IMG/VR virus record: IMGVR_UViG_3300030060_001229
Coordinates: 393 to 24,279 of that record
Origin: a virus
DNA length: 23,887 bases
Direction: 5' to 3' (one strand)
Made by a program: the position numbers and the translations under genes. The notes under the pieces are model-generated. The model worked only from the letters and a program-made list of their open reading frames with translations. It did not search any database and was not told the origin of the DNA. Positions 3,051 through 19,074 of the stretch are shown in pieces. The number at the start of each line of letters is the position of its first letter. Position 1 is the stretch's first letter.

Positions 3051-4868
3051 GTGGCCGATTACGGTGTAAATATAAATTTAAGAGTAAAAGGTCAATCTGG
3101 TCTTGATAGATTAAATACGAAAGTAAAACAGCTAACAAAAAGTGTAGATGATATTCGACAAATAGATATAATGAATCCTCGAAATACAGGGGGAAAAGCA
3201 GGACAAAGTGCTCGTAATGAATTAAAAAAATATAGACAAGATATGGAAGCTATTACCAAAACTGTTAATAAATCTAAAATGGCTTTTGGTGAAACTGCCA
3301 ATGCTCAAATGGCAACAGCAGATGCTTTAGAAGAATATACAAACAGTTTAAAAATTGGGACTAAAGAACATAAAAATGCTTTAGCAGCAACAAATAAACA
3401 AAATGCAGCTTTAGGTAGAGAAACAATTCAAATTAATGAAAATACAAATGCACAACTTAAAAATAATAAAGCACAAGCTCAAGGAAATAAACTTGATAAA
3501 TTTAATAACAAAAGCAATAAAGCAGCAGCTACAAGTGGACTAATCTCTGGTGCGTTCCCATTATTATTTGGACAAGGCCCATTGGGTGCTATTGCTGGTT
3601 TTACTGGAGGTTTTGCAGGAACTAAGATTGGTGGTCAGATGGGAGGTTTTGCAGGAGGTCTTGTTGCTACTGGTATTCTTCAACAACTTACTACTGCAAT
3701 TAAAGGATTAAGTGATCTTGGAAAAGCATTAGATCCTAAAACTTTAAATATTGATGCGGTTTCAAAATCTTTTGGATTGTTAGGAACTGATACAGAAAGA
3801 TATTTAAAATTAATTGAACAGACCGAAGGCAAACAAGCTGCTTATAATGCTGCTGTTGAAGAGACAACAAAATTAGTTGGACAAGATGGTGTTGAAGCTC
3901 TACAAGCATTTGCAGACAGTAGTCAAAACCTTACAAATGAAATGAGTAAATTCTTTACAAGGCTTGGTACTGAAATAGCAAAATTATTTAATAGAGGTGC
4001 TAATAATGATTTGAGTAAGCCGATATTAGGTTTTGAAAGGTCAAATTTATTAGCACAAGCAAAAAATGTTACTGATGACGCAGCTATTATGGCAAAAGTA
4101 GCACAAATAGAAAAAGAAAGAAATCGAAATAAACGAAAAGACTTAGAAAATGAACTTGTTTTATTAATGAAGGCAAAAAATATTGAAGATGCAAGAGCAA
4201 GAGCAGCAGAATTAGCAAGATTAGAGTATGAACAAATAACTAAATCTTTAAAAGATCAAATAAATTTTCTTAATAATGCAATTACTTTAGGGCAAGGAGA
4301 AGCTGAAATCATAAGAGAAAAAAATAAACTTATAGAAGCTGCTAGAAAAGCTGGAGTTAAATTTGATGAGGAAGAAATAGAAAGACAAGTGCGATTAAAA
4401 CGGGAATTAGAAAAGTTAAATGTTTTATATGCAGGAATCGCTTCGACAATAGAGACAGGGTTGGTTGATGCAATAGAAGGTGCAATAAATGGAACTAAAA
4501 CTCTTGGAGATGTAGCTCGGAGTGTGTTTAGTCAAATTTCTAGATCACTTATTCAATTTGGTGTTAATTCATTACTAACAAGTATATTTCCTGGTTTTCC
4601 TGGCAGAGCAGCAGGTGGCCCTGTTAGTAAAGGTAAGAGTTATATAGTTGGAGAGCGTGGCCCAGAAATGTTTACACCTGCATCTTCTGGAAACATTATT
4701 CCAAATCACGATTTAGGTGGCGGAACAAGTGTTGTTGTAAATGTAGATGCCTCTGGTTCTGCTGTTGAAGGAGATGAAGCACAGGGAAGAGAGCTTGGTC
4801 GTCTTATATCAGTTGCAGTACAATCTGAATTAATACAGCAACAAAGACCTGGAGGGTTACTTGCATAA
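3051..4868 (+). CDS. Tape measure protein
   Basis: 605 residues with a GTG start. A long N-terminal helical region (about 1-155) is rich in Lys, Asn, Gln and Ala. A Gly-rich hydrophobic stretch follows (about 163-220, with PLLFGQGPLGAIAGFTGGFAG), then a second charged coiled-coil region (about 330-460). The C-terminus carries RAAGGPVSKGKSYIVGERGPEMF, the signature end of many siphovirus tape measures. The protein sets tail length; by the usual rule of about 0.15 nm per residue the tail would be near 90 nm. The gene follows the chaperones and its stop TAATG overlaps the M-like gene. Confidence 0.9.
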   Translation: MADYGVNINLRVKGQSGLDRLNTKVKQLTKSVDDIRQIDIMNPRNTGGKAGQSARNELKKYRQDMEAITKTVNKSKMAFGETANAQMATADALEEYTNSLKIGTKEHKNALAATNKQNAALGRETIQINENTNAQLKNNKAQAQGNKLDKFNNKSNKAAATSGLISGAFPLLFGQGPLGAIAGFTGGFAGTKIGGQMGGFAGGLVATGILQQLTTAIKGLSDLGKALDPKTLNIDAVSKSFGLLGTDTERYLKLIEQTEGKQAAYNAAVEETTKLVGQDGVEALQAFADSSQNLTNEMSKFFTRLGTEIAKLFNRGANNDLSKPILGFERSNLLAQAKNVTDDAAIMAKVAQIEKERNRNKRKDLENELVLLMKAKNIEDARARAAELARLEYEQITKSLKDQINFLNNAITLGQGEAEIIREKNKLIEAARKAGVKFDEEEIERQVRLKRELEKLNVLYAGIASTIETGLVDAIEGAINGTKTLGDVARSVFSQISRSLIQFGVNSLLTSIFPGFPGRAAGGPVSKGKSYIVGERGPEMFTPASSGNIIPNHDLGGGTSVVVNVDASGSAVEGDEAQGRELGRLISVAVQSELIQQQRPGGLLA

Positions 4869-5221: not shown

Positions 5222-5967
5222 TGGCAACTACTTGGACTTCTAACACTAGCGTATCTGTTGGGAACATTATTGCTCCAACGAGTGCAAGTGCTGGATTATT
5301 TTTTAAAGTAACTACTGCTGGTACTACTGGTTCTAGTGAACCAAGTTGGGCAACTTCTATAGGTCAGACAGTTTATGATAATGATGTTAGATATATTTCT
5401 TTAAGTGCTACTTTTAGTGATTTGCAATCTATTAATCCATCAGCAATTATTGAATTGTTTACACTTCAATTATCTAACACATTACATGGTGCGACTACAG
5501 TTTATAGATTTCATGCTGGTAGTAACTTAAATGCAAATGGAAAAATAATTTGGGCTGGTAATGAGTACCTAAGATTTCCAATACAAGCTACAGGTTTTGC
5601 TTTTCAAAAAGGTCAGTTACCTAGACCAAGAATAATTATTAGTAATGCGACAGGACTAATTTCTGCAATATTGTTAAGTGTGAATGAAACTACAACTGGT
5701 AATGATCTTACAGGTGCAACAGTAACTAGAATAAGAACATTAGCCAAGTTTATAGATGCTGCTAATTTTGCTGACGGTAATAATCCTACAGCAGATAATA
5801 CAGCAGAATTTCCGCAAGAAATTTATTCTATAGATAGAAAATCAACAGAAAATAGAGAAATTGTTGAATTTGAACTTGCTGCTCCTACGGATTTAGCTGG
5901 AGTTCGCATCCCAGGCCGTCAATGCACAAGAAGCGATTTTCCTTCTATTGGTACGTTTGTCGCATGA
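5221..5967 (+). CDS. Minor tail protein, lambda L-like, with extra N-terminal domain
   Basis: 248 residues. The first 60 or so form a small domain of the type VGNIIAPTSASAGLFFKVTTAGTTGSSEPSW...IGQTVYDNDVRYISL, a module found on many phage structural proteins. The rest reads like gpL: IELFTLQLSN, a TVYRFHAG loop, IIWAGNEYLRFPIQATGFAF, and a final ELAAPTDLAGVRIPGRQ. Lambda gpL ends in a domain whose cysteines hold an iron-sulfur cluster; this protein stops shortly after RIPGRQC and has only one cysteine in total, so it cannot bind such a cluster. It overlaps the next gene by ATGA at 5964-5967. Confidence 0.8.
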   Translation: MATTWTSNTSVSVGNIIAPTSASAGLFFKVTTAGTTGSSEPSWATSIGQTVYDNDVRYISLSATFSDLQSINPSAIIELFTLQLSNTLHGATTVYRFHAGSNLNANGKIIWAGNEYLRFPIQATGFAFQKGQLPRPRIIISNATGLISAILLSVNETTTGNDLTGATVTRIRTLAKFIDAANFADGNNPTADNTAEFPQEIYSIDRKSTENREIVEFELAAPTDLAGVRIPGRQCTRSDFPSIGTFVA

Positions 5968-13798: not shown

Positions 13799-14914
13799 AT
13801 GTCGAACCAAATAAGACTTAAAAGAGCAAGTGGAAGCGATCCAAGTGCAAGTGATTTAGTAACAGGTGAAGTAGCTGTAAGAACCGATAATGGGAAATTA
13901 TTTACAAAGAAAGATGATGGAAGTGTAGCTGAAATATCAGGCGGTGGAAGTGCTGGTCCAACTGGTCCGACAGGACCGACAGGACCCACAGGACCGACAG
14001 GACCGCAAGGCCCAGCAGGTGATGACGGAAGCACTGGGCCAACAGGACCGCAAGGACCTCAAGGCAGTCAAGGCTCAACAGGACCAACAGGACCAACAGG
14101 ACCTACAGGTCCGTCTGGAACAGGACCTACAGGCCCACCCGGACCCACTGGACCTACTGGACCATCTGGCACAGGACCCACAGGACCGCCCGGTCCTACA
14201 GGACCTTCGGGAGGAACCGGACCAACCGGACCAACTGGACCAACCGGACCAACCGGATCGACTAACAATAATGCAAGTTTAATTTCATCAGGAACTTTAG
14301 CCAATGCAAGATTACCTTCAACAATAGATGTTTCAACACTAGAAGCTGTAAACTTTCATGATTCCGCTGCCTCTGCTGGAACATTAAATAGTGCTGGCTG
14401 GTCTGCATATCGAAGCGGTAGTGGATTTGAAGCGATAACTATTGTTAAAAGTAGTAGTGGTTATGGAACAGCTTTGTTTATCAAAAGATTAACCAGTTGT
14501 GGCACAGGACATTTAATAACATTTCATTATGGAAGCACTGCTGTAGGAACTATTACTACTGATGGCAGTACATTTTCATTGCATCCTAGTAGTGATTATA
14601 GATTAAAACAAGATGTATCAAATATCACTGATGCAACAACAAAACTAAAGGCATTAAGACCAGTAAATTATAGATGGAAAAGTAATCCGGATCTTGGTTA
14701 TGATACTGGTTTTATCGCACATGAGGTTCAAGAAACAGGTTATTTTAATCGACAAGTTACTGGCGTAAAAGATGGAATGAAAAACAAAGATGACAATCCT
14801 GAAGAACAAGAAGAAGATCTTCAAGGTGTAGATTATAGTAAATTCACTCCAATGCTTGTTGCTGCATTTAAAGAATTAGAAGCTAGAGTCACAGCACTTG
14901 AAGGAGGTAGTTGA
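13799..14914 (+). CDS. Collagen-like tail fibre with S74 chaperone domain
   Basis: 371 residues, with a strong Shine-Dalgarno AAGGAGG at 13785-13791, seven bases before the ATG. Residues 1-50 resemble the start of the previous fibre. Residues 53-153 are collagen-like Gly-X-Y triplets, mostly GPT, with three register breaks (twice SGTG, once SGGT). A short beta region follows. Ser264-Ser265-Asp266 opens the S74 chaperone domain ([13 protein letters not shown]), and the end ([15 protein letters not shown]) is a coiled coil. The design predicts a thin, stiff trimeric fibre folded by its self-cleaving chaperone. The stop TGA overlaps the TTG start of the oxygenase gene. Confidence 0.88.
13955..14257 (+). 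repeat. Collagen-like GPT-repeat DNA
   Basis: This stretch encodes about 100 residues of Gly-X-Y triplets, built largely from variants of GGACCNACN. It is far more GC-rich than the rest of the window and creates long but meaningless frames on the other strand. Proline is mainly at X; GPP triplets with proline at Y occur at two places. Confidence 0.92.
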
Positions 14915-15516
14915 AAGAATTTATACAGGAAATAAAAGTTCTTGATGATAAAGACTTAAAAATTATCAATGACTATATAGATACTCTTGATTTTGCAGTT
15001 AATACTGTATTTAATACAAACGGAACTGTAAGAGAAGATACCAGCATCAGATCAAGCACTGGAACGGCAATGGATGAAAATGACGTTGCCACAAAACTAT
15101 TACATGAAAACATAAATACTGCTTTAATAAAATACAAAAATAGACTGTTTAATTATGATCTTGTTTTAGACTGTTATCCTGTTGTAGGTGCAAAAAATAC
15201 AAGTTCACATAGAGAAGAGATACAAGTTTTACAATACACAGAAGATCAAAAATATAACTGGCACTATGATGCTTGCCCCGACCCAAATAGTAAATTTTAT
15301 CATCGTCAGATTTCTCTTGTTTTGTATTTGAAAGATGACTTTGAGGGAGGAGCTACTAAATTTAAAATGCTTCCGCACCATGAATACAGACCAAAGGCAG
15401 GGTACGGATTATTCTTTCCGTCAAACTGGTGTTTTACACATTGCTCTACACCTTTAGAGTCAGGTGAAAAAAGAGTAGCGGTTACTTGGTATTACTGTAT
15501 GGATAATTTAAATTAA
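14911..15516 (+). CDS. 2-oxoglutarate/Fe(II) oxygenase, prolyl 4-hydroxylase-like
   Basis: 201 residues from a TTG start at 14911 that overlaps the collagen-like fibre stop (TTGA). AAGGAGG (14901-14907) lies just upstream, and no ATG occurs before residue 54, too late for the fold. The double-stranded beta-helix signature is complete: His118-x-Asp120 (NWHYDA), a strand ISLVLYL, GGATKF, then distal His177 (CFTHCS) and Arg188 for 2-oxoglutarate (EKRVAVTW). Family members hydroxylate proline or lysine in proteins, using O2 and 2-oxoglutarate. Being translationally coupled to a collagen-like gene, its likely substrate is that fibre; this is inference. Confidence 0.85.
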
Positions 15517-17019: not shown

Positions 17020-17181
17020 ATGGATTGTTACTGGTGTGGTACAGAATTAATAATAGGTGGTGACATTGACATTGAAGATGGGATGGTTGGTTATCCTGAG
17101 TTTTCGGTGATGACTAACTTATCTTGTCCTAAATGCTCATCGGAAGTAGAGGTATTAAAGAAGAGAGATGCCTACGATTAA
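17020..17181 (+). CDS. Small zinc-ribbon protein
   Basis: 53 residues starting at the ATG two bases after the previous stop. CYWCG (residues 3-7) and CPKC (residues 36-39) make a CxxC...CxxC zinc ribbon, and the part between is acidic. Small zinc ribbons of this form are common in cyanophages. It overlaps the next gene by 14 bases, so the two are probably co-translated. Function unknown. Confidence 0.7.
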   Translation: MDCYWCGTELIIGGDIDIEDGMVGYPEFSVMTNLSCPKCSSEVEVLKKRDAYD

Positions 17182-17836
17182 AGTTCCTGAGATAAAGATA
17201 CCAACTGTAGATATTCCTTCTGTACCTTTTGTTAGTGATAATGTTCTTACAGGTTTACAACCTGCCTGTGATCTTGTTAATAGAGATTTAAAGATAACCC
17301 AGAATCCAACTATTGTATTTTATAACCGTAAACAATATGCAACTTGTCCACAGGGGCCGATAACAACTACAACTCCTGTAGAAGAAGATAAAACAAACGC
17401 GCCAAAAGCAGAAAGGCAAAAGTTTAGGTCTATTGCCTATGATCCCAATGACACTATAGAAACCGAAGGTTCTTCTAGATATACAGAAGGTATCCCACTT
17501 AAAGGTGTGTTCATGTCACAGGGAGAAGAAAAGAAAGAAGAACAAGAATTATCACCATGCCCACCAAAAAGTCCTCCATACAGACCTGGGGATTGGAGAA
17601 ATGAGCTTAGATTGGAAAGGCTGGTAAAATATGAGCGTGGGTTATTGGAGGGTTCTTGTGACGCAATCTGGGAAGAAGTACCGTTTGTGGACCAATACAT
17701 CCCAACGGCTAGCGTGGTTGTCTCTACTGCTGTTATTGCTAGTGTGGCTGCGACTACACCTGTTATTCTCCAGCTTGTAAAACCACTAGTAAAAAATGTG
17801 ATCAAAAAGCTGACAAAGAAGAAAGATAAGGTATAA
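17168..17836 (+). CDS. Membrane-anchored protein, uncharacterised cyanophage-type
   Basis: 222 residues. It opens with a Pro/Ile/Val-rich repeat-like stretch (IKVPEIKIPTVDIPSV), then a soluble region with a CPPKSPPYRPGDWRNELRLE block, then EVPFVDQYIPTASVVVSTAV running into one membrane span (about 180-204). The tail is strongly basic (KPLVKNVIKKLTKKKDK), implying a C-terminus inside the cell. The middle and end blocks recall a family of unknown function in Prochlorococcus/Synechococcus phages. It is the last gene of the + strand run; its stop codon lies inside a TATAAT that may start the downstream RNA. Confidence 0.7.
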   Translation: MPTIKVPEIKIPTVDIPSVPFVSDNVLTGLQPACDLVNRDLKITQNPTIVFYNRKQYATCPQGPITTTTPVEEDKTNAPKAERQKFRSIAYDPNDTIETEGSSRYTEGIPLKGVFMSQGEEKKEEQELSPCPPKSPPYRPGDWRNELRLERLVKYERGLLEGSCDAIWEEVPFVDQYIPTASVVVSTAVIASVAATTPVILQLVKPLVKNVIKKLTKKKDKV

Positions 17837-17837
17837 T
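17810..17837 (+). promoter_or_regulatory. Strong sigma70-type promoter before the structured RNA
   Basis: CTGACA (17810-17815), 16 bases, then TATAAT (17832-17837): five of six and six of six consensus bases. It overlaps the end of the upstream gene and no gene follows on this strand, so any product would be the noncoding RNA region starting near 17844. Confidence 0.55.
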
Positions 17838-17858
17838 GAATATTACCCACCTAGGGTA

Positions 17859-17919
17859 AAGATAATTTGTCTGATCACAAGTTATCTTATTTAGACAAGT
17901 AACTACCCGTAGCTTGTCT
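17859..17919 (+). terminator. Two stacked hairpins at the end of the late operon
   Basis: First hairpin: 17859-17870 pairs with 17877-17888 as an unbroken 12-bp stem (one U-G) with a six-base loop. Second hairpin: AGACAAG (17893-17899) pairs with CTTGTCT (17913-17919), followed by ATTTT. The second could be a terminator for the + strand genes. The U-G pair suits an RNA from the + strand. TTGTCT at 17867-17872 can also pair with AGACAA at 17893-17898, so the two hairpins could switch. Confidence 0.55.
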
Positions 17920-17924
17920 ATTTT

Positions 17925-18051
17925 AAGCATTGCATACTTGGTAGCCCCTACTTGAAAAGGTAGATGTGAGCCCAAGACCGATGCTTTTAAACATCGCTTA
18001 CCTGACAGCCTCTACTCCAACGAGTAGGTAGTGAGCCCAGGACCGATGTTT
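17925..18051 (+). ncRNA. Tandem three-stem structured RNA (two related ~63-nt units)
   Basis: Unit 1 (17925-17986) and unit 2 (17989-18051) align with a single one-base gap and each fold into three nested stems. P1: 17925-17932 with 17979-17986, and 17989-17996 with 18044-18051 (8 bp). P2: 17937-17941 with 17972-17976 (5 bp), and 18001-18004 with 18038-18041 (4 bp). P3: 17948-17953 with 17958-17963, and 18012-18017 with 18022-18027 (6 bp). Loops of conserved sequence join them: AGCC on the 5' side, TGAGCCC on the 3' side, GAC before P1. Differences between units keep pairing in all three stems. G-U pairs and a GAAA loop favour the + strand. I do not recognise a known class. Confidence 0.75.
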
Positions 18052-18658
18052 ATTTTATTTTGTGAGCATGAGGTAATACTTGATTTGGAATCGTGGTTAA
18101 TACAACATTACGGCAAGATATAGCGTCATCTCCAACAAACTTAATACCCTCTTTCAACATAGTTGCACATACCTTTAGACGATTAAGGTTTACCTCTAAA
18201 CGTTTAGCCTCCAACATAAACTCCTGTGTTTTTCTATGAGCCTGTGCAGCTTTCAAACATTCTTGATTAAAACTTTTACCTAAAGGAATTTGAAAACTTA
18301 AAGTCGCTCCATAAGATAAGTTATGGTTCGTTTGATCTATTCGTTCCTGTTCTGCGACATATAAAATACTCCCAGGGTTAAGCAACTGACCTGTATCACT
18401 ATCCGTTGTAGTGTCATATATATTGGTTCGTGATTTATTAATTCTGGGAGTATCAAACCCTTCTCCTTTAGTAATAAAAGGAGTGAAAGCCAATGTTGGT
18501 AACTGACATTGTATTCCATTTGAAAATCTATGAGTTGGGAAGTTTCCTTGAATCGTTTGGAAACCCTGGTTGACCACTGTTCCTTGGCTACTTGAGCTTG
18601 GCGAACTTATTGTGGTGTTTGCATATGTAGGACTTGAAAACAATAAAGCTACTGAAAT
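18050..18658 (-). CDS. Exported protein of unknown function (start uncertain)
   Basis: About 202 residues if started at ATT 18658-18656, ten bases inside the end of the upstream gene. Earlier in-frame ATGs (up to 18817) only read the upstream gene out of frame and would bury the hydrophobic segment RHAISVALLFSSPTYA, which looks like a signal peptide with an Ala cleavage site. No ATG, GTG or TTG lies at the right place. The mature part has CQLPTLAFTPF, NPGSILYVAEQ, LSYGATLSFQIPLGKSF, a coiled helix with AKRLEVNLNRLKVC, and an end CRNVVLTTIPNQVLPHAHKIK. It resembles exported proteins of unknown role in marine cyanobacteria and their phages. Last gene of a four-gene operon; its stop overlaps the structured RNA stem. 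Confidence 0.65.
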   Translation of the reverse strand: MSVALLFSSPTYANTTISSPSSSSQGTVVNQGFQTIQGNFPTHRFSNGIQCQLPTLAFTPFITKGEGFDTPRINKSRTNIYDTTTDSDTGQLLNPGSILYVAEQERIDQTNHNLSYGATLSFQIPLGKSFNQECLKAAQAHRKTQEFMLEAKRLEVNLNRLKVCATMLKEGIKFVGDDAISCRNVVLTTIPNQVLPHAHKIK

Positions 18659-19074
18659 AGCGTGACGGAATCTTGCACAGTTTCTATTGTTTGATTTCTG
18701 GTTATTATTGACACTGCGTCTAAACCTGGTGCTAAAAAGTTTTCCATTATTGAGAAGTCTGAAGAATTTGGAACCATTTCCCATTGAGGTTTGGTTGGTA
18801 GATCTGGTGTTACCCATTGAAAACTAACTTTACCTGTACTTTGACTTGTTGTATATGTTGCATCAGGTGATATGACAGAACCATCTTTAACTTGGATATT
18901 TGTACCAGAAACACTATAGCTATAGCCTGTCCTATAGTTTTCAGTGACGATAGTTTCGTTAATTGTACTGATACTTTTACTTGTTGACTGCATTTGATTG
19001 GCAGCAAATCTTGGAGTTGTAGCTTTTGCATCTGAACTATAAAAAGCGATAAACAAAAGCAATAACCATCTCAT
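18649..19074 (-). CDS. Exported protein of unknown function
   Basis: 141 residues with a clear signal peptide (RWLLLLFIAFYSSDAKA, probable cleavage after AKA). The mature part is Ser/Thr-rich and beta-like, with repeated short strands (YRTGYSYSVSGTNIQVKDGS, VSFQWVTPDLP). No cysteines remain after the signal. Its ATG shares one base with the stop of the upstream gene (TAATG) and its own end overlaps the next gene, so all are translationally coupled. No family recognised; the export signal is what the sequence shows. Confidence 0.75.
   Translation of the reverse strand: MRWLLLLFIAFYSSDAKATTPRFAANQMQSTSKSISTINETIVTENYRTGYSYSVSGTNIQVKDGSVISPDATYTTSQSTGKVSFQWVTPDLPTKPQWEMVPNSSDFSIMENFLAPGLDAVSIITRNQTIETVQDSVTLFQ

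Follow-up and report, generated by a model that had tools for sequence, protein, structure and literature searches.

A structured RNA family within a cassette array of a probable Prochlorococcus phage

Two tandem units on the + strand of a viral DNA are identified by sequence comparison as members of a new family of phage RNAs, hereafter family C, of which the fold is conserved. The units are located in the window (the whole stretch of 23,887 nucleotides that was analysed) and belong to one array, whose cassettes come from different families and are exchangeable, and in which the copy number varies. The array probably forms its own transcript, and is situated between two convergent genes, here named X and Y. 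The features of this region are as follows.

17168..17836 (+): gene X, 222 aa, PHROG 570 (phrog_570, E 4.5e-13), function unknown; its 3' end holds the promoter
17810..17837 (+): sigma-70-type promoter CTGACA-N16-TATAAT, 11/12 consensus; the -10 box overlaps the gene X stop codon
17844..17858 (+): small hairpin at the 5' end of the predicted transcript, from the fold of 17842-18056
17859..17888 (+): 12-bp hairpin AAGATAA...TTATCTT, from the fold
17892..17920 (+): hairpin of cassette family H (TAGACAAG..ACCCGTAG..CTTGTCTA), from the fold; H is found in 11 of 84 spacers
17925..17986 (+): structured RNA unit 1 (family C), fold z -4.1, covariation, covariance model score 82.7 bits (both window copies being part of the model's alignment); helices P1 17925-17932/17979-17986, P2 17937-17940/17973-17976, P2b 17944-17945/17970-17971, P3 17948-17953/17958-17963
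17989..18051 (+): structured RNA unit 2 (family C), fold z -3.2, covariation, covariance model score 82.0 bits (same alignment, both copies included); helices P1 17989-17996/18044-18051, P2 18001-18004/18038-18041, P2b 18008-18009/18035-18036, P3 18012-18017/18022-18027
18050..18817 (-): gene Y, 255 aa, PHROG 848 (phrog_848, E 4.8e-51), function unknown; convergent

The stop codon of gene Y overlaps the final bases of unit 2, and neither X nor Y has a Pfam match. By tblastn against named phages, gene X gave no match at 1e-5 and gene Y gave 411 records at 0.01. The cyanophage origin suggested in the preliminary description, which was made from the letters of the window, agrees with the tail fibre, for which the nearest named phages are MED4-117, MED4-184 and P-HS2 (Prochlorococcus MED4 siphophages; about 41% identity over 93-96% of the length); a marine single-cell virus record shows 69% identity over half of the fibre. 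The host of the virus is probably Prochlorococcus, as judged from these sequences, and the contigs would be marine, as judged from their relatives. Further upstream, the window has a gene for a protein (13799-14914) in which long GPTGPT repeats, collagen-like, are combined with a DYRLK motif at the C terminus, as in phage tail fibres, and a 2OG-Fe(II) oxygenase gene (14911-15516; phrog_61, E 6e-35).

Fold and conservation of family C

On the + strand, both units were folded into the same nested three-helix form, with energies of -19.7 kcal/mol for unit 1 (z -4.1) and -19.4 for unit 2 (z -3.2), and with z -5.0 when the two were folded as a pair. The minus strand was weaker against its own shuffles (z -2.0 for unit 1 and -2.7 for unit 2), even though its raw energy was lower for unit 2 (-22.9). 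The two units are identical at 47 of 62 aligned positions, and between them the pairs change in P1 (G-C to A-U and U-G to C-G), in P2 (U-A to C-G) and in P3 (U-G to U-A and U-A to C-G). Thus, the coordinates and the three-helix form of the preliminary description were reproduced, and its five pair changes, three compensatory and two wobble, proved exact on recheck. The two-pair helix P2b, the promoter at 17810-17837, the hairpins within 17844-17920 and the cassette array in relatives are absent from that description.

At least 29 copies of family C, about 62-68 nt in size, were identified on 19 viral contigs at one to three copies per contig, this count being a lower bound obtained from pattern-based scans and best-80 lists. 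The search was performed with a covariance model of five copies and later with one of 23, with pattern scans, and on loci fetched via gene X (best 80 of 406, best 80 of 244 and best 80 of 108). The contigs are that of the window, L077, L008, L009, L115, L100, L097, L096, L090, L120, L122, L123, L124, L206 and L318-L322; duplicates of counted contigs (L083, L104, L087, L130, L151, L210 and L290) were left out. In one of these searches, which gave 14 matches, those on L106, L084, L101 and L108 (E 0.16 to 3) were discarded as chance, while the other 10 had E <1e-15, four of them on three contigs counted before. No copy beyond the two units was found in the whole record of the window (29,405 bases), and the tandem pair gave no blastn match among named phages. 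One pattern scan of bacterial genomes (84,980 species with one genome each; contigs of at least 3,000 bases; exact-pattern copies) yielded no true copy, since the four stretches with the pattern (in Comamonas, Ramlibacter, Arthrobacter and a MAG) do not meet the covariance model at E 1 and were taken as chance. Family J of contig L096 was considered as a distant cousin of family C and rejected, the second covariance model failing to reach J at E 10.

Covariation was examined on a MAFFT alignment of 23 copies (21 distinct rows) for helices P1, P2, P2b and P3, the six copies on L318-L322 being excluded. Pairing was observed in 98.3% of 420 cells, compared with 88.6% in shuffles (reached in 0 of 500) and 26-43% in slid controls, in which the partner was shifted by 1-3 columns, a comparison biased in favour of the structure because it was partly derived from the same sequences. 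Both sides have changed in 13 of the 20 pairs (shuffle mean 6.3, 0 of 500; slid controls 1-3), and in 42 cells against 10.6 in shuffles (0 of 500). The number of further pair types in the 23-copy alignment was not above that of shuffles (329 of 500); several pairs have three or four types, for instance columns 3/72 (GC, UA, AU) and 28/41 (UG, GU, UA, CG). In P2b, columns 20 and 59 covary from G-C to A-U, and since this joint change is confined to four rows of one subtype, the support for P2b comes from one lineage. As for the strand, the helix cells of the 23 copies contain 34 G-U or U-G against 3 A-C, and therefore the RNA sense is +. The selection on RNA structure and the + sense, both proposed in the preliminary description from the two units, are thus borne out over the larger set.

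The unpaired columns 9, 19, 22, 53, 55, 57 and 66 are conserved at 95% or more. The mean conservation of unpaired columns (0.80) is, however, not above that of paired columns (0.86), so that a binding surface is argued for by a few columns only. The apical loops differ among copies by eye (GAAA, CAAC, CGTT, GGAA, GAGA and a longer one), and no conserved unpaired run of at least six bases was found in the aligned copies of family C. Copies of different subtypes stand side by side in L120, L122 and L124.

No match of the whole window to Rfam 15 was detected at the gathering threshold, and nothing relevant was detected in 17800-18120 at E<=10. In the Rfam searches as a whole, weak matches to GcvB, ssnA and HOTAIR (E 0.17 to 0.7) were far under the cut-off and were dropped. 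Neither of the two outcomes named in advance as contrary to the preliminary description, homologues that have lost the stems and an exact Rfam match, was encountered, the stems being kept among the copies found. The unit was put forward there as a candidate new RNA class; since one, two or three copies are present per homologous contig, the functional unit is not the pair in tandem. In the open-access literature (titles and beginnings of abstracts; subscription papers and preprints lie outside this scope), no description of the family C RNA or of such an array was found.

The cassette array and its promoter

By tblastn, both X and Y were located around the units in 16 of the 19 contigs, all with the same order X-units-Y. 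In L122, gene Y is a clear open reading frame and the end of X was read by eye. In L097 and L123, another gene is located upstream of the units instead of X; by BLASTP, that of L097 is not similar to gene X (E 0.71), and the convergent gene of L097 resembles Y in short stretches only, as read by eye. The upstream gene of L115 is 40% identical to X. Unit C is thus also found next to neighbours that have diverged or are different.

At the same spot between X and Y, relatives carry different folded-looking elements, and some carry none. The census covered 158 loci with X and Y located, giving 100 distinct spacers, 96 of them 30 nt or longer. Members of 21 seed groups, one or more per spacer, are present in 84 distinct spacers with 50 arrangements; the groups other than C stem from 28 seeds picked by eye, merged to 21 letters and extended with nhmmer, and the letters are working labels, some of which may merge or split. 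The number of elements per spacer is one in 39, two in 23, three in 15, four in 5, five in one and six in one, and the most frequent groups among the 84 spacers are F (32), B (17), C (16), H (11), A (10) and D (9). The spacer of the window reads H-C-C. An identical 63-nt C cassette is present on six contigs, where its left neighbour is of four kinds (L, A, C and N) and its right neighbour of three. At the equivalent position, the isolates MED4-117 and MED4-184, on Prochlorococcus MED4, have a promoter with a TAGAAT box and, as a different cassette, one of group R. The pattern of group D gave 14 stretches, of which 12 are at the X-Y spot (11 in the census and L310 by eye); those in L311 and L313 are surrounded by other DNA and were regarded as chance finds.

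Among 11 representative cassettes, six folded with z <=-2.7 (B -3.4, B3 -3.0, D -2.7, F -4.5, I -4.3 and L -3.9) and M and P with z -1.7 each, while the folds of A (z -0.4), K (z -1.0) and N (z +0.8) do not stand out. By eye, group N (L123 about 265-178 on the minus strand, and L321) has CCCC(CC) in the loop and GGGG(GG) after the stem, a possible pseudoknot that would account for the poor result of nested folding. A simple terminator hairpin is what group T (6 of 84 spacers) looks like. In the loci searched, none of the folded cassettes matches Rfam in place. In L008, a large folded-looking stretch (3303-3600) between cassettes D and C consists of seed groups U and P, two P parts being separated by an insert. 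Protein genes are located at the X-Y spot in L067, L174, L023, L045, L079, L063, L120, L138, L200 and L301; of four such proteins compared with Pfam, that of L067 is an MT-A70 methyltransferase and the other three gave no match over the cut-off.

The promoter at the end of gene X is not significant by itself, as a mean of 0.8 such sites is obtained when the region is shuffled, and the evidence for it is therefore comparative. Promoters at the X stop with 9/12 or more were counted in 129 distinct contexts, those without a spacer being scanned with the sequence beyond the X stop, which left the counts unchanged. The promoter is present in 53 of the 67 contexts with a unit within 40 nt, in 7 of 19 with a unit further off, in 2 of 13 with a spacer lacking a recognised unit, and in 0 of 30 without a spacer. 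Fisher's test for promoter against array gives p 1e-14, a value overstated by the relatedness of the contexts by descent; in most contexts without a spacer, X and Y overlap and the tail of X is itself different. Of the 14 close contexts without a promoter at the X stop, seven have one of at least 10/12 in the spacer before the first unit; in the other seven (L073, L312, L179, L180, L181, L192 and L274) no promoter was found by the criteria used. It is from the difference between 53 of 67 and 0 of 30 that the array is considered to be probably its own transcript, with the promoter of its own that is expected of an independent phage sRNA gene. The position 'after the operon' given in the preliminary description is thus better read as a separate transcription unit, and a promoter whose presence follows that of the array speaks for its transcription. 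Transcription would start at about 17843-17846, and the predicted transcript (17842-18056) folds with z -7.0.

One cassette, S, carries an exact copy of the Yfr1 11-mer, ACTCCTCACAC, in the X-Y spacers of L189, L195 and L207. This undecanucleotide is described as ultraconserved in cyanobacterial Yfr1 in the available part of PMC2190773. It occurs three times in 26,481 bases of spacer, and the three S cassettes are near-identical, so that they may represent one event. The 11-mer ACUCCUCACAC is partly paired in the predicted fold of cassette S, unlike in Yfr1, where it forms an unpaired stretch between two stem-loops, and cmscan against Rfam did not call the cassette a Yfr1 RNA; its sequence suggests a phage-borne Yfr1/Yfr10-like sRNA. 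The sole Rfam match over the further loci is a Cyano-1 RNA (RF01701) at 5300-5366 on the minus strand of L075, outside the array, with 42.9 bits against a cut-off of 41; no Cyano-1 RNA was found in the record of the window. Just upstream of the Cyano-1 RNA and on its strand is GUGUGUAGGAGU, by eye nearly complementary to the Yfr1 motif. Because of the Yfr1 motif in cassette S and the Cyano-1 RNA in L075, phages of this group are considered, at the level of sequence, to carry host-type sRNA parts, of which unit C itself carries none. A kinship of unit C with Yfr1 was considered and rejected, the exact 11-mer being absent from the spacer of the window.

Possible roles of the array

Altogether, these observations are best accommodated by an accessory spot of transcribed non-coding RNA cassettes acting in trans, a reading which we regard as reasonably probable. 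Within it, the conserved RNA fold on the + strand is established by covariation, and the array of swappable cassettes of different families between convergent genes by comparison among relatives; the sigma-70-type promoter at the end of gene X is predicted to drive an independent non-coding transcript, about 210 nt in the window, and this transcript would act in trans during infection. Action in trans is suggested because the transcribed strand has no gene behind the array and relatives differ freely in their cassettes, and the Yfr1 undecanucleotide in cassette S is in support of it. As to unit C in particular, we propose with some reserve, as a possibility rather than an expectation, that it binds a host protein via its conserved internal joints (AGCC, GUGAGCCC and ACC), either as a decoy or by imitating an RNA that keeps a defence enzyme of the host in check, in which case copies of different subtype would meet different host variants. 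Binding of a protein (or a small molecule) is favoured over pairing with RNA because the apical loop varies, no run of antisense length is present, and the conserved unpaired letters are located in the internal joints. Freely varying cassettes, with subtypes side by side, are as expected if hosts differ in the targets, as they do in their defence proteins. Neither a host target nor a toxin or defence partner of unit C was found. An extension of this proposal, speculative and doubtful at present, is a new kind of phage locus, a promoter-driven cartridge of about 20 RNA families, every one of which would have its own target among host proteins or RNAs, with family C serving as protein-binding decoys; such a locus would be to RNA what an anti-defence island is to proteins.

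Base pairing, as by Yfr1/Yfr10, offers another mode of action, in which the cassettes would be antisense sRNAs and unit C, too, would use a single-stranded segment to pair with mRNAs or sRNAs of the host. The Yfr1 motif of cassette S in three distinct spacers, the Cyano-1 RNA elsewhere in a related phage contig and the presence of such an sRNA network in the host (PMC6778093, in its available part) speak for it, but family C has no conserved unpaired run of at least six bases and its apical loop varies in both sequence and length, so that we consider it rather unlikely. The site between convergent genes would also suit terminators or insulators, where a stem followed by a T-run stops polymerase from one or both sides, and T-rich tails do follow the last unit in several contigs (for instance TTATTTTTTT in L120, L124 and L320). 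A scan of 17700-18150 for intrinsic terminators (G+C-rich stem, short loop, T-run), however, gave no site at either unit, with hairpin loops of 3-8 counted and P1, with its large interior, outside that range; P1 is rich in A and U, and in the window its T-run is broken. For terminators, conserved joints, 21 seed groups and a promoter in front would all be unnecessary, and 30 of the 129 contexts have no spacer at all; this explanation is judged unlikely.

Protection of late phage mRNA by a 3' UTR, for which any tight fold would suffice against host RNases, would fit with the array lying at the end of a + strand run of genes that includes tail genes, and with the upregulation of RNase E in phage-infected MED4, as given in the available part of PMC2518516. 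Yet the promoter is tied to the presence of the array, single joints are conserved within family C, and some seed groups fold no better than chance, all of which make such a role quite improbable. The preliminary description had likened the units to double-aptamer riboswitches or tandem ribozymes, a likeness for which being tandem is the sole support. Self-cleaving ribozymes or tandem ligand-binding aptamers could be compact and tandem with conserved joints, as these units are, but no family of Rfam 15, which includes the known ribozymes and riboswitches, was matched, the small self-cleaving ribozyme cores among them. The aptamer of an ordinary riboswitch precedes a gene on its own strand, within the 5' UTR; here no gene follows on the + strand and the next gene, Y, is convergent, in agreement with the preliminary description, and this class of explanation is considered very unlikely. 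The modular exchange of cassettes at one spot could also be that of a DNA element, serving recombination or replication, in which the hairpins would function as DNA and not as RNA, and the AAGC/GCTT ends common to several cassette types could be recombination substrates. The excess of G-U over A-C in the helix cells and the promoter in front point instead to RNA, and a DNA element is regarded as extremely improbable.

Exchangeable accessory inserts with protein genes are well known in phages; at the present spot it is apparently folded non-coding RNAs that are inserted, with many RNA families in one place and their swapping visible between relatives. If the cassettes act in trans, such a natural set of RNAs, manipulating one of the most abundant photosynthetic cells, would be a place to seek RNA-based counter-defence.

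Comparison with known RNA systems

ToxI takes the form of a short pseudoknot repeat. Type III RNA antitoxins of this kind are tandem repeats of one RNA with a toxin gene beside them or a host toxin to bind; here one to three copies are present per contig, single copies being common, and the neighbours X and Y lack Pfam matches and belong to PHROGs of unknown function. To our knowledge, the nearest demonstrated case would be pseudo-ToxI of phage PhiTE, a phage RNA mimic described in the available part of PMC3475682 as having evolved by repeat expansion and recombination. As in pseudo-ToxI and the type III antitoxins of the same source, tandem repeats of a phage non-coding RNA vary in number and are spread by recombination, and action in trans is proposed here. 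Unit C differs in its length of about 62-68 nt, in its nested helices, in the lack of an Rfam match, and in that many unrelated families stand side by side.

Yfr1/Yfr10 and Yfr2 of Prochlorococcus (PMC2190773, PMC6778093; available parts) and Cyano-1 (RF01701) are likewise small non-coding RNAs, of the host group. The 11-nt Yfr1 motif is shared by cassette S, and one phage contig carries Cyano-1 outside the array; unit C, in contrast, has neither the motif nor an Rfam match. The cis-regulatory RNAs manA, wcaG, PhotoRC-II and glnA are also structured RNAs of marine cyanophages; in the available parts of the sources, manA is located in potential 5' UTRs, and wcaG and PhotoRC-II are found with metabolic or photosynthesis genes (PMC2864571, PMC9964418). 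Unit C matches none of them, and is located behind a gene and before a convergent gene, in arrays.

Phage tRNA arrays are comparable accessory inserts. Phage morons are transcriptionally autonomous genes, according to the available part of PMC2784084, and similarly the present inserts are apparently transcribed autonomously at one spot, where some relatives have protein genes. Unlike morons and tRNA arrays, the inserts at this spot are non-coding RNA cassettes of many sequence families, which are shuffled as modules.
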